Part shown: positions 4,100 through 8,518 of the stretch, piece by piece
Position numbering within the stretch: the stretch's first letter is position 1
Layout: every line of letters begins with the position of its first letter
Source: a virus
Reading direction: 5' to 3' (one strand)
Virus record (IMG/VR): IMGVR_UViG_3300032282_003280
Location: 27,275 to 91,274 of that record
DNA: 64,000 nucleotides
Notes under the pieces: generated by a model
Told to the model about the DNA's origin: nothing
The model's database searches: none
What the model saw: only the letters and a program-made list of their open reading frames with translations
Made by a program: the position numbers and the translations under genes

Positions 4100-6895
4100 T
4101 TATTGATAGTATGGTAACCATTTATCTGCACCAGCAACATTAATCTTAACCCATCCTGCAGGTGTTACTGTATTTGTTGGTGTTCCACTTGTAGCATCCC
4201 ACTTATAAGTAGCACCTGATGTACCTAATACAGATATATTCTGTTGTACTTCTATATCATTATCTGTAGCTCTTAAAGTCTGAGAACCTACCATTAAGTG
4301 AGCACTATTTAGGAGTTCTACCTTTACATTGGTGCCAGAACCTTCCTCAACCTGAAAATTGGGAGTAAATACACTAGATCTATTATAACCTAATGCATAA
4401 TAATATCCACCTGTAGTCATCTGAAATCTCCAAAGACCTGAACCATTATTACCATTTATTGTAAGTGCTGATATAGTATTGCTAAAGGAAAGAGATGATG
4501 TGTTTGGTAAGTACATAGCATTAACACCTTGAGAACCACCTGCTGTATAGGCATACATTACATTACCAAAGTTACTATCACCATTTACAAACAACATGAT
4601 ATTACTTTGGGGATTTGCACCTATACCAACTCCAGAAGAGTTGTCATGTATCTTATTACTGTCAAAGGTACCACTTGCATATAAATTACCTGCTATAATA
4701 AGTTTATAACCTGCAGTTGGGGCAAAACTTATACCCACACCTGTACCATCATCTCTAATAATACTATTACCCACAGTAGTAGTACCTGTAAATTTAGCTA
4801 AATAGTTTGTTGTACCACTTACACCACCAGGTCCAGTATATCCAGTATACCCCGTGTATCCAGTAGCTCCCTGAGAACCAGAAGGTCCAGTATACCCCGT
4901 GTATCCGGTATATCCTGTAGCACCTTGAATCCCTTGAGGGCCTGTATACCCTGTGTAACCCGTGGCACCTTGGATACCCTGAGATCCGGTGTAACCTGTA
5001 TAACCCGTATATCCCGTAAAATTACCAGGTCCCGTATAACCAGTGTAACCAGTTGGTCCAGTATAACCAGTAAAATTACCCGGCCCTGTATACCCTGTAT
5101 ACCCTGTAGGACCGGTATATCCAGTAAAGTTTCCAGGACCAGTATAACCTGTAAATCCTGTATACCCAGTAGGTCCAATTGGTCCAGTAAAACCTGTGGC
5201 ACCAGTATACCCAGTATAACCAGTCGGACCTATAGGCCCAGTAAAACCAGTATACCCTGTTGCTCCTATTGGCCCTGTAAATCCAGTATATCCAGTGTAC
5301 CCTGTATAGCCTGTGAAGTTACCTGGACCTGTGTATCCAGTAGGACCTGTGTAGCCAGTAAAATTACCTGCACCGGTGTATCCAGTGTAGCCAGTAAAGC
5401 CAGTATATCCTGTAGGACCATTAGGGCCTGTAAAGCCGGTGTAACCTGTATAACCTGTAAATCCAGTATAACCAGTTGGACCCACTACTGTTAAAGGAGT
5501 TATTGCTAGTATTAACTGATGGTTATTTGAAAAATTGGTGGTTCCTGTTCCTCCTGAGGAGGTTAATGACACTGGTATCTCAAAGTAAGAATTTGATAAT
5601 CCTGGATTTACATGAGTTGGCGTACCTGTTATATACCAAGTCTGATAATTTGATGAGTTGTTTTTATCTTGAAGTATAAAAGTTTGAGTTGCATCTAAAA
5701 GAGCTAAAAACACATCAATATCAATATTATCATTTGTAAGGTGACTTATATTAATTTGAGTAGAAATTACCTGAGTACTATTATTCCAAATAATATAACC
5801 GTCTCCAGGATAACCCGAAGTAGCAGTATTTTTTGCTTGATATTCAAATATTGTAGAGGATATACCTTTTGGTCCGGTGTAACCAGTAGGTCCAGTATAT
5901 CCAGTGTACCCTGTATAGCCTGTGAAGTTGCCAGGTCCTGTATAGCCCGTAAAGCCAGTATATCCCGTGTAACCTGTGAAATTTCCAGGACCAGTGTAAC
6001 CGGTAAATCCAGTGTAGCCTGTATACCCTGTGAAATTTCCAGGGCCGGTATACCCCGTGTATCCAGTATAACCTGTAGCTCCCTGTGTACCAGAACTACC
6101 TTGAGATCCAGTGTAACCAGTAGCTCCGGTTGGACCTTGTGGACCTGTATATCCAGTGTAGCCAGTAGGTCCTGTACTACCATCATTACCTGTATAACCG
6201 GTATAACCTGTAGCACCGTCTGCCCCAGTATAACCTGTGTATCCGGTAGCTCCATCTACACCATTAGCTCCAGTGTATCCCGTAGGACCAGTTGTGCCAT
6301 CAAGGCCAGTATAACCTGTGTATCCGGTAGGACCGGTACCACCAGGACCTGTGTAACCAGTGTATCCTGTAACACCCTTAGGTCCAGTAAAGCCTGTATA
6401 ACCAGTGTAACCTGTTGAACCTCTAGAACCAGTATATCCGGTTGCACCTGTTTTACCAGTATATCCGGTATAGCCTGTACTACCTGTTTTACCAGTAAAA
6501 CCAGTTGCACCAGTAGCACCGGTATAGCCGGTTGGACCTGTGTATCCTGTGAAGTTACCTGGGCCTGTATATCCTGTATAACCGGTAGACCCTGTTGGAC
6601 CTGTACTACCTGTAGGTAATGTCCAAACTTGGTCAGCAGAGAGGTCTTTTGTGGTACCATTAATGGTTATAGTACGAGTGGTGGGAACACCATCTGTAAT
6701 ACCATACCCAGATAGGGTAGTTGGTGTATTAGTTATTGTATTCCAATCCTGAGTACCTGTATGGTTGGCTCTCTGAATAGCAGTAGCTACCCCATCCTTT
6801 AGTTGTGTACCAACATCAGTGGGAGTAATAGAGTTAGCAACTATCTTATTAGTAACTGCTATATCTACCTGTAAATAATACTGTGAAACTGTCAT
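4100..6895 (-). CDS. Collagen-like (G-Y-T repeat) phage fibre protein
   Basis: 931 aa. The N-terminal region (1-95) includes a phage tail-repeat motif ([22 protein letters not shown]). Two long Gly-X-Y stretches follow, at about 96-344 and 472-693, with Y overwhelmingly Thr and X mostly Tyr, Phe or Pro (GYTGYTGPT), plus recurrent [10 protein letters not shown] units. They are split by a non-collagen globular domain (345-471). The C-terminal head (694-931) contains a YLAKFTG...VGIGANP pattern seen in Bacteroidota phage fibres. It should form a trimeric triple-helical fibre used for adhesion. Bacterial collagens lack hydroxyproline, and Thr in the Y position is a known O-glycosylation site in other collagen-like proteins; glycosyltransferase genes flank this gene. 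Long repeats make its length likely to vary. Confidence 0.85.
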
Positions 6896-7122
6896 TAAGA
6901 GAAAACTGGATTAAATTCAAAAGTAAATATATTCTCCCCTAGGATTTGATACTCTATAATGTTACATCCATCATATAGTATTCTAAGGAGTTTAAACCCA
7001 GGAACATTTTTATATCTTTTGTCTTCTGTAAAGGTAGCCATGAGTATTTTGTCGCCAATCATTTTGACGTAACCAACTAATACTACACAATTTGGACTAC
7101 AGTTTGAATCACAAGAAGACAT
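6895..7122 (-). CDS. Small Cys-rich protein next to the fibre gene
   Basis: 75 aa, family not recognised. The N-terminus [12 protein letters not shown] has four cysteines in twelve residues, echoing the Cys-rich starts of the 355-aa and 576-aa structural proteins in this genome. The remainder is a compact beta-type domain ([18 protein letters not shown]). Its stop overlaps the fibre ATG at 6895 and its own ATG overlaps the end of the neighbouring glycosyltransferase at 7122, so all three are co-translated. It could be a fibre-attachment plug or a metal- or disulphide-stabilised adaptor. This is a context argument only. Confidence 0.5.
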
Positions 7123-7871
7123 TATTCCCTAAAGGAGGTTTTTATATAATCTATTAACTTATAATAAGACTCTTTATCAGATGGGTTAGTTATACCTGAT
7201 CCAAAGTCTCTTTCTTTCTTTTGGCTATTTAGGAAGTTCTGAGGAGTATCCTCTCCCTTACCTGACATTTTATATACTGGTATTCCTCCCCAATCATAGC
7301 AGAATGTACTTTCTCCTTGAGGGTCTGAGAATATCTTGTTGTTCATTACTAGAGGTAATAACCACTTATCATGATATTTTACAGAGTTGGAGTGAAAACC
7401 ATGTTCTTTTATATGGGAGAAATCTATAAAGATAGAGGGTTCATAAACATTCTCATTTCTATATATCTTTCCTCCGGACATATAATAGGATTTTTTAGGT
7501 TTATATGCAAGCATACCTATTTGATAGGCTTTCTGCATACCTTCTACACCCTTGGATATATGATTTGGGAGGAATATATCATCAACATCAGACGATGTCC
7601 ATACATCAATTCCCTCTAAATTAAGAAGAGAATCCCTATATTTATCTCCTACAGAAGCATAAGGTTTCCCTGTTACCTCATCTGTAACCCTATTGACAAG
7701 AATTATCTCTTTGTTTTCAGGTAGATCAAATTCCGGAAAACTAGTCTCTACTCCTGAGTTAAATACTAAAAGTGTAGATTTTCCTTGATAATCCTGTTCT
7801 AGGTAACTTCTTAGTAGCCTTTGTAAGCAGGTATCTCTATTATAAGTTGTAGTACAACAAAGAACATGCAT
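7122..7871 (-). CDS. Family 2-type (GT-A) glycosyltransferase
   Basis: 249 aa, a single GT-A domain. The start MHVLCCTTTYNRDTCLQRLL is a classic GT2 N-terminal strand-loop-helix. STLLVFNSGVE forms the second strand, and DVWTSSDVDDIFLPNH near residues 94-109 holds the DVDD metal/donor motif. A typical acceptor-side region follows up to KLIDYIKTSF at the C-terminus. The gene is embedded between an 89-aa structural candidate and the small Cys-rich and fibre genes with single-base overlaps. This makes expression together with the collagen-like fibre certain if the unit is transcribed from its left-reading promoter near 8,540. Donor sugar and acceptor are unknown. Confidence 0.75.
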   Translation of the reverse strand: MHVLCCTTTYNRDTCLQRLLRSYLEQDYQGKSTLLVFNSGVETSFPEFDLPENKEIILVNRVTDEVTGKPYASVGDKYRDSLLNLEGIDVWTSSDVDDIFLPNHISKGVEGMQKAYQIGMLAYKPKKSYYMSGGKIYRNENVYEPSIFIDFSHIKEHGFHSNSVKYHDKWLLPLVMNNKIFSDPQGESTFCYDWGGIPVYKMSGKGEDTPQNFLNSQKKERDFGSGITNPSDKESYYKLIDYIKTSFRE

Positions 7872-8140
7872 TACTTAGACTCATTTATGATTTGAATAAG
7901 TTGACCTTTTGTCAGGTTTGTTAATACTTGAGTATTACTAATCAGAGCTTTAACAAATTCTAGATCAGCATTACTTAACTCAATAGGTTTAAACTTATAA
8001 AGATCAAGTGACCAAGTCAAACACTGTAGAGGATCTCCGGTATTTGCAGATACAAGTGCCGTAGCTAAAAGTTTACCTAAATTTTCCCCTACTGGATTTC
8101 CATCTAAGTCCAATAAGGGCTTATTAAAGTCAAATAACAT
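7871..8140 (-). CDS. Hypothetical virion-associated protein
   Basis: 89 aa, family not recognised. It is a soluble protein with a hydrophobic N-terminal motif (MLFDFNKPLLDLDGNPVGENLGKLLATALV) and a helical remainder ending in TKGQLIQIINESK. Similar short proteins with a L-D-L-D-G-x-P-x turn often sit just before tail-fibre genes in phages and may act in assembly; this is a family impression rather than a firm match. Its stop overlaps the ATG of the following glycosyltransferase by one base. It is not essential to call it structural; the operon is the main clue. Confidence 0.5.
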   Translation of the reverse strand: MLFDFNKPLLDLDGNPVGENLGKLLATALVSANTGDPLQCLTWSLDLYKFKPIELSNADLEFVKALISNTQVLTNLTKGQLIQIINESK

Positions 8141-8164
8141 AATAAATTGTTGGTTTTGTGTATA

Positions 8165-8518
8165 TTATGAATATATAAATACAGTATATGTCTGAGAAGT
8201 AGTAAACTCAGTACCACCTTGTAGTACAAATCCACCTCCTGTAAGTAGTTGATATTGCCCTGCTCCAGTACCCTCAGTTAAATAACCGGTACCATTTAAG
8301 TATATCTTAACATTATAACCATCCATTGCAGGATTGCTATATGTTGTGGTATTATTTGCAGGAGTACCCGGATTACCATCACCAATAGTAAATTGTGCTA
8401 TAGGTTGGTAATTCTTAGTAGATGCTATCCTAGCAAGATATCCATTAGATATCCTTATTAATTTTTCTATATCCCGAAGCCATTTAGTTTCTTCGGTAGT
8501 AATAAAGCCGTGAGCCAT
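8165..8518 (-). CDS. First gene of the fibre/glycosylation unit, structural candidate
   Basis: 117 aa, not recognised. The N-terminal 45 residues are helical (EETKWLRDIEKLIRISNGYLARI). The rest is a beta-rich domain with Gly/Thr-rich turns (GTGYLTEGTGAGQYQLLTGG), consistent with a short fibre tip or adaptor. It is the promoter-proximal gene of the leftward unit: a TATATTTG -7 box lies 21 bp before its ATG at 8518 and a 9-bp-arm palindrome sits at about -36. The gene after the giant cargo proteins in crAss-like phages is commonly a tail or fibre gene, and this fits. Confidence 0.5.
   Translation of the reverse strand: MAHGFITTEETKWLRDIEKLIRISNGYLARIASTKNYQPIAQFTIGDGNPGTPANNTTTYSNPAMDGYNVKIYLNGTGYLTEGTGAGQYQLLTGGGFVLQGGTEFTTSQTYTVFIYS

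Follow-up and report, generated by a model that had tools for sequence, protein, structure and literature searches.

Two predicted glycosyltransferase–substrate pairs in one phage gene block: a collagen-like Gly-X-Thr fibre and poly-Thr proteins

This analysis concerns a block of genes, all on the minus strand, at the left end of a 64,000-nucleotide stretch of phage DNA (bases 27275–91274 of the 91,274-base IMG/VR record IMGVR_UViG_3300032282_003280; "the window" hereafter). The left 27 kb of the record was also read. Three glycosyltransferase (GT) genes, here named GT249, dGT and GT352, share the block with the gene of a collagen-like fibre. We consider it likely that the genes of the block together form a kit for O-glycosylation of the virion, made up of two enzyme–substrate pairs, in which dGT would act on the Gly-X-Thr repeats of the fibre and GT352 on the poly-Thr linkers of a neighbouring protein of 355 amino acids (aa). 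The gene pairings, their specificity, their recurrence across unrelated contexts and the folds of the enzymes are observed. Because both pairings recur in many unrelated viruses, the phages that carry them very probably glycosylate their own particles.

The collagen-like fibre

The original prediction, made from the letters of the window, described a fibre with two long Gly-X-Y arms in a block with GT genes, and in this it was right. The fibre matches Pfam Collagen (E = 4.6e-53) as well as PHROG tail fibre families. It contains 147 G-X-Y triplets in runs of at least five, compared with 1.75 on average and never more than 16 in 500 shuffles of its residues, and its arms span residues 96–346 and 472–696. 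The Y position had been called nearly always Thr; Thr occupies 112 of the 147 Y positions (76%). The description of X as mostly aromatic is only just correct, with Tyr or Phe at 76 of 147 positions (52%) and Pro at 31. Gly and Thr use all four of their codons in the repeats, Tyr uses both, and the poly-Thr tracts likewise mix synonymous codons. Because of this mixing, the repeats and the tracts are considered to be kept at the protein level and not by DNA slippage.

The fibre enzyme, dGT

The TPR-linked double GT said to follow the fibre is indeed present, with a GT2 domain (residues ~1–230), a TPR region (~235–385) and a second GT2-like domain (~386–579), and it lies at 2048–3796, outside the stated interval of 4100–8518. 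A start at the ATG at 3787 is likelier than at the TTG at 3796. The protein matches PF00535 (9e-24) and TPR families in Pfam, and its profile matches GmaR and SunS. The predicted model is confident (pLDDT 92.6), and the best fold matches found by Foldseek in the PDB are the peptide S-glycosyltransferases ThuS (7msk) and SunS (7msn/7msp), with E = 3e-15. The N-terminal half superimposes on SunS 7msp over 317 columns at 3.3 A, and the layout of a GT2 domain with a C-terminal helical repeat is shared. Against the SunS family TIGR04195 the protein scores 24.5 bits, far under the cut-off of 350.

Other phages have dGT-type proteins of 740–1000 aa (L011:34-2895, L053:5325-8255, L092:4123-7125 and L023:4564-6780). 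In the larger variants an additional domain, of GT-D-like, methyltransferase or DXD sugar-transferase type, separates the two GTs, which suggests more elaborate fibre glycans, as would be expected of a glycan-building enzyme.

For a survey, viral contigs in IMG/VR were scanned by DNA pattern for GYT-type fibres, poly-Thr proteins and, as a control, GPQ/GPE collagen, giving 120, 120 and 119 loci respectively. The survey counts are samples of IMG/VR, among the matches listed. In a second direction loci were fetched by the enzyme alone, which avoids the bias that comes with selecting loci by their fibre.

With profiles built from the enzymes of the window, a dGT was found at 35 of 120 GYT loci, at none of 120 poly-Thr loci and at 2 of 119 GPQ loci (Fisher p = 2e-16). 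The co-occurrence survey of related phages that had been suggested as a check on the original prediction supports it for this enzyme, with 35/120 against 2/239 in the controls. PF00535 was above cut-off in 35 of 50 whole records with GYT fibres, in 13 of 50 with GPQ collagen and in 14 of 50 with poly-Thr. When the enzyme was used to fetch the loci, a GXT fibre lay on the same strand in 20 of 24 loci of close dGT relatives and was present in 24 of 56 loci of distant ones; the background of GXT fibres in GPQ loci is 12/119. The GXT fibres of dGT loci belong to 22 unrelated families, and dGT itself forms 18 clusters at 50% identity. No other shared gene was detected in 86% of pairs of loci with both dGT and a GXT fibre. 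In some loci a GT follows the fibre by 10–24 bp; in L067 and L093 the distance from a GXT fibre to a single-GT relative of ~354 aa is 14 bp. In phages of diverse kinds dGT thus shows a specific association with Gly-X-Thr fibres, and its fold is one known from peptide glycosylation. The original proposal that the GTs serve the fibre is supported for this enzyme and not for GT352 and GT249, as described below.

Actinomycetia phage DSL-LC01 (L649, OQ999401.1) has a gene of the tryptophan halogenase family with GXT collagen genes on one side and a dGT-type GT on the other. The halogenase was considered as a third fibre-modifying partner and dropped, as it was found in 1 of 50 GYT-fibre records versus 0 of 50, with no general trend.

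GT352 and poly-Thr proteins

The further GT-A gene proposed at the left edge of the window is real. It is complete in the parent record (L003:17771-18829) and encodes 352 aa. It matched no Pfam or NCBIfam family; GT352 and its relatives match phrog_4417 (E to 9e-68), a family without an assigned function. The family model (L145, 57 sequences; pLDDT 97.9) has a GT-A fold, which Foldseek places near WbbM, UGGT, LgtC and glycogenin, and the two aspartates of the DXD motif, D101 and D103, are invariant across the 57 sequences.

Upstream of GT352 lie two proteins absent from the original prediction. The 355-aa protein is 24% Thr and has three long Thr/Ser linkers of up to 31 residues, and the 127-aa protein has a run of seven Thr.

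In the forward scan, GT352 was found at 13 of 120 poly-Thr loci and at no GYT (0/120) or GPQ (0/119) locus (Fisher p = 4e-7). A strict rule, requiring a run of eight Thr/Ser residues, undercounted poly-Thr partners written TTTTTTVAPTTTTTT, and a looser rule was used afterwards. Among the viral loci fetched by GT352, 70 of 80 have a poly-Thr open reading frame (ORF), and in 57 of 80 it is directly upstream on the same strand, typically within 60 bases; the poly-Thr background in GPQ loci is 7/119. In bacterial genomes a poly-Thr ORF is directly upstream of 17 of 32 GT352 genes shorter than 400 aa. A GXT fibre was found at none of the 160 loci fetched by GT352, 80 of them viral. A role of GT352 on the fibre does not agree with these counts.

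When the poly-Thr tracts were masked, 87 GT352-adjacent partners fell into 23 unrelated families, and the tract is all that they have in common. In Firmicutes prophages the partners include a major tail protein (phrog_88), a tail tube protein (phrog_6686) and a major head protein (phrog_840). GT352 and poly-Thr proteins co-occur in cultured phages of Enterococcus, Lactobacillus, Lactococcus and Staphylococcus; in those of the first three genera, the partners include capsid proteins and major tail proteins that carry a poly-Thr tag at the C-terminus. The major tail protein gp50 of Enterococcus phage phiFL1A ends in TTTTTSTTTTTTSSTTTTTTTQASSK, and its stop codon overlaps the start of the GT gene. 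The capsid protein of Lactococcus phage CHPC836 has APTTTTTTQATTTTTSHA at its end and is followed after 15 bases by the GT gene; the major tail protein of this phage ends in TTTTTTTHA. In PLE3 the major head and major tail proteins both end in TTTTTTTSK. PLE3 (L644) and CHPC836 (L645) thus have both head and tail proteins tagged, with a single GT352 gene in the region read. Across the 23 unrelated families, capsid and tail proteins among them, GT352 follows the poly-Thr tag and not any particular protein, which is the strongest point of the survey.

GT249

GT249 alone is below the cut-off in Pfam (E = 0.022), and a profile of GT249 with two relatives matches GT2 structures, at best with 2.6e-9. 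The original prediction had this upstream GT co-translated with the fibre and acting on it. The gene arrangement agrees with the former: TAATG stop/start overlaps run from the 89-aa gene through GT249 and the 75-aa gene to the fibre, an arrangement that fits coupled translation. The latter is not supported by the distribution of relatives, which occur at 11 of 160 GT352 loci versus 0 of 439 other loci. Distant relatives lie directly downstream of poly-Thr ORFs (L002, L205, L654), and no close relatives beside collagen were found; L651, among the closest, has a GT249-type gene in the same place without a GXT fibre. GT249 is not tied to collagen and leans, from few loci, to the poly-Thr pairing. 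The possibility that all three GTs act on the fibre was rejected on the specificity counts.

Weighing of the evidence and alternative explanations

Several observations weigh against the proposal of two enzyme–substrate pairs. The scans in which dGT and GT352 were counted also supplied the training loci for their profiles. A GXT fibre is missing nearby in 32 of the 56 loci of distant dGT relatives, among the relatives in PaBG and Erwinia jumbo phages there is none nearby either, and ~70% of GYT loci have no dGT inside the stretch fetched. dGT is usually in the gene block of the fibre but not strictly adjacent to it (median gap ~1.1 kb; in the window 303–312 bp, holding the 92-aa ORF), and a control with random placement shows no tight adjacency. 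Strict adjacency was consequently dropped, and an association within the same block and on the same strand was retained. Bacterial homologues of GT352 longer than 400 aa have no poly-Thr protein next to them, and their role may be a different one, for example in another peptide-modifying system. Examples of 500–770 aa lie on Pedobacter, Sphingobacterium and Chitinophaga chromosomes (L564, L571, L575, L591).

The distant dGT relatives without GXT fibres would also fit a different target, in which case the GTs would act against superinfection by altering glycans on the host surface (O-antigen, capsule or teichoic acid), and would lie near fibre genes because both belong to a host-interaction island. 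Phage GTs of the GtrB type do modify host surface glycans, and dGT relatives are labelled 'beta-1,4-glycosyltransferase' or 'LOS glucosyltransferase' in PHROG and GenBank. We consider this unlikely, since the score against phrog_841 is the only sign of the GtrB type and is weak, none of the GTs in the window has a membrane-like segment (highest 19-residue Kyte–Doolittle mean 0.90), and there is no flippase-like gene among the ORFs of the block. A host glycan as target would not explain why GT352 tracks poly-Thr over 23 unrelated proteins, including capsid and tail-tube proteins, in phages of both Bacteroidota and Firmicutes. The enrichment of GT2 is absent from collagen fibres without Thr. A role in glycosylating phage DNA, as in base hypermodification, is a common one for phage GTs and has been proposed for collagen-bearing freshwater actinophages (PMC10202952). 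Here it is very improbable: the 91 kb record, which is possibly incomplete, has no match to PF00303 (the thymidylate synthase/hydroxymethylase family), and the neighbours of the GT genes, within the late structural block, are Thr-rich genes and not replication genes.

The much tighter adjacency of GT352 to its partners raises the question of whether poly-Thr and GT352 form the only real unit, with dGT accompanying GXT fibres through common descent or because tail modules are exchanged, and having some other target. That dGT relatives also occur beside other tail and head genes would agree with this. It nevertheless seems rather unlikely, given how few pairs of dGT and GXT loci share another homologous gene and how widely dGT has diverged. 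The short distances from fibre to GT in some loci speak against it as well, as does the GT2 and TPR enzyme of C. difficile, which glycosylates GPT collagen (PMC7157674).

Proposed mechanism and significance

For the kit with two enzyme–substrate pairs we infer the transfer of sugar, its donor, the order of the steps and the benefit as follows. Glycosylation would take place in the cytoplasm of the infected cell, late in infection, with nucleotide-sugars of the host as donor. The TPR domain of dGT would hold the fibre chain while the first GT2 domain places a sugar on Thr at the Y position of the Gly-X-Thr repeats, to which the second GT domain would probably add a further sugar. In the 355-aa protein next to it, GT352 would place a sugar on the poly-Thr linkers, where the glycans would probably be extended or added to by GT249. 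Candidate benefits are stiffer or protease-resistant fibres, masking, and binding.

On balance, we favour the view that the poly-Thr tract is a portable glycosylation tag, by which GT352/phrog_4417 would act on any tagged virion protein (capsid, tail tube or fibre) in phages of Bacteroidota and Firmicutes, and that the phage in the window runs this tag system beside a collagen-specific dGT.

Two groups of GTs common in phages, annotated as 'hypothetical', 'pi2 protein 34' or 'beta-1,4-glycosyltransferase', thereby gain a predicted substrate, GT352/phrog_4417 gains a fold in addition, and an explanation is offered for the poly-Thr tails on many phage virion proteins. If the proposal is true, virion glycosylation, reported in mycobacteriophages, is found in much of the phage world, and the enzymes may be of use for glycosylating collagen repeats or a peptide tag that is simple and portable. 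The presence of GT352/poly-Thr pairs in cultured phages makes the prediction directly testable.

Genome context and gene arrangement

The record encodes recognisable portal, terminase and major head proteins. A 1726-aa structural protein has relatives in Cellulophaga phage phi17:2, csAssE-Sib and Leptolyngbya phage Lbo-JY46, and a 1690-aa protein weakly matches an RNA polymerase subunit of phage cr128_1. Because of these two proteins, the phage is taken to be crAss-like, and from these relationships its host is probably a member of the Bacteroidota. On the chromosome of Chitinophaga sp. YR573 (L562), a homologue (29%) of the 1690-aa protein adjoins two GT352-type genes. This region is apparently an integrated relative of the phage, and it suggests a Chitinophaga-like host.

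The genes of the block are, in order, 117 aa, 89 aa, GT249, 75 aa, fibre, 92 aa, dGT, 127 aa, 355 aa and GT352 (Table 1), and the start of the 127-aa gene overlaps the stop of dGT (ATGA).

Table 1. Genes of the proposed glycosylation block, with positions in the window.
Feature	Position	Strand	Basis
Collagen-like fibre, 931 aa, two Gly-X-Thr arms, proposed substrate 1	4100..6895	-	Pfam Collagen; triplets; PHROG tail fibre families
dGT, proposed fibre glycosyltransferase	2048..3787 (TTG start at 3796 possible)	-	PF00535, TPR, fold, GXT association
355-aa protein, three Thr/Ser linkers, proposed substrate 2	586..1653	-	composition; directly upstream of GT352
GT352, N-terminal 184 of 352 aa, proposed poly-Thr glycosyltransferase	3..554	-	phrog_4417, GT-A family fold, poly-Thr association
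127-aa protein, Thr7 run, possible minor poly-Thr substrate	1668..2051	-	composition
GT249, GT2-type GT-A, 249 aa, DVDD motif, possible chain-extending or second GT	7122..7871	-	profile, relatives
75-aa gene, TAATG-coupled to GT249 and fibre	6895..7122	-	no relatives among loci fetched
92-aa gene, between fibre and dGT	3809..4087	-	no relatives among loci fetched
89-aa gene, head of block, coupled to GT249	7871..8140	-	ORF list, overlap
117-aa gene, head of block	8165..8518	-	no relatives among loci fetched

Elsewhere in the record, an ORF at the left end (L004:1-993) starts with a long tandem repeat of the LYSQLDSQ type and runs off the end of the contig. The two halves of a 1033-aa terminase (window 56035–59136, minus strand) match different large-terminase profiles, and the first half also matches helicase-loader-like ATPases; a fusion or an insertion is possible.

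Comparison with known systems

The closest parallel to the fibre pair is in C. difficile, where SgtA, a GT-A and TPR protein of 358 aa whose gene adjoins that of the collagen-like Gly-Pro-Thr protein BclA3, adds beta-O-GlcNAc to Thr of GPT repeats in vitro (PMC7157674). dGT resembles SgtA in layout and context, having a GT-A domain followed by TPR in one chain and a gene close to that of a G-X-T-rich collagen-like protein. The substrate in C. difficile is a spore coat protein, whereas here it would be a phage fibre with aromatic residues at X, and dGT has a second GT domain. The N-terminal half of dGT is also like SunS/ThuS by fold and like SunS and Listeria GmaR by profile; SunS, however, acts on Cys of a bacteriocin, and dGT, being under the SunS family cut-off, is not a member of that family. 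A virus that glycosylates its own collagen-like protein is known in Mimivirus, through L230 (PMC9614988), which differs in being a bifunctional giant-virus enzyme that glucosylates hydroxylysine.

For the poly-Thr pair, a literature search, largely without subscription papers, gave no report on point for poly-Thr phage proteins with GTs. According to PMC12619734, citing Freeman et al. 2023, capsid and tail-tube subunits in mycobacteriophage virions bear glycans at their C-termini. As far as that secondary account goes, these are the same sites as those of the poly-Thr tags in GT352 phages, and the block in the window is likewise an arrangement of GT genes beside the phage's own structural genes. 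The hosts are different, and the likeness is one of protein type and site. Taken together, the fibre half of the block looks like SgtA/BclA3, and the poly-Thr half seems to be a new family.

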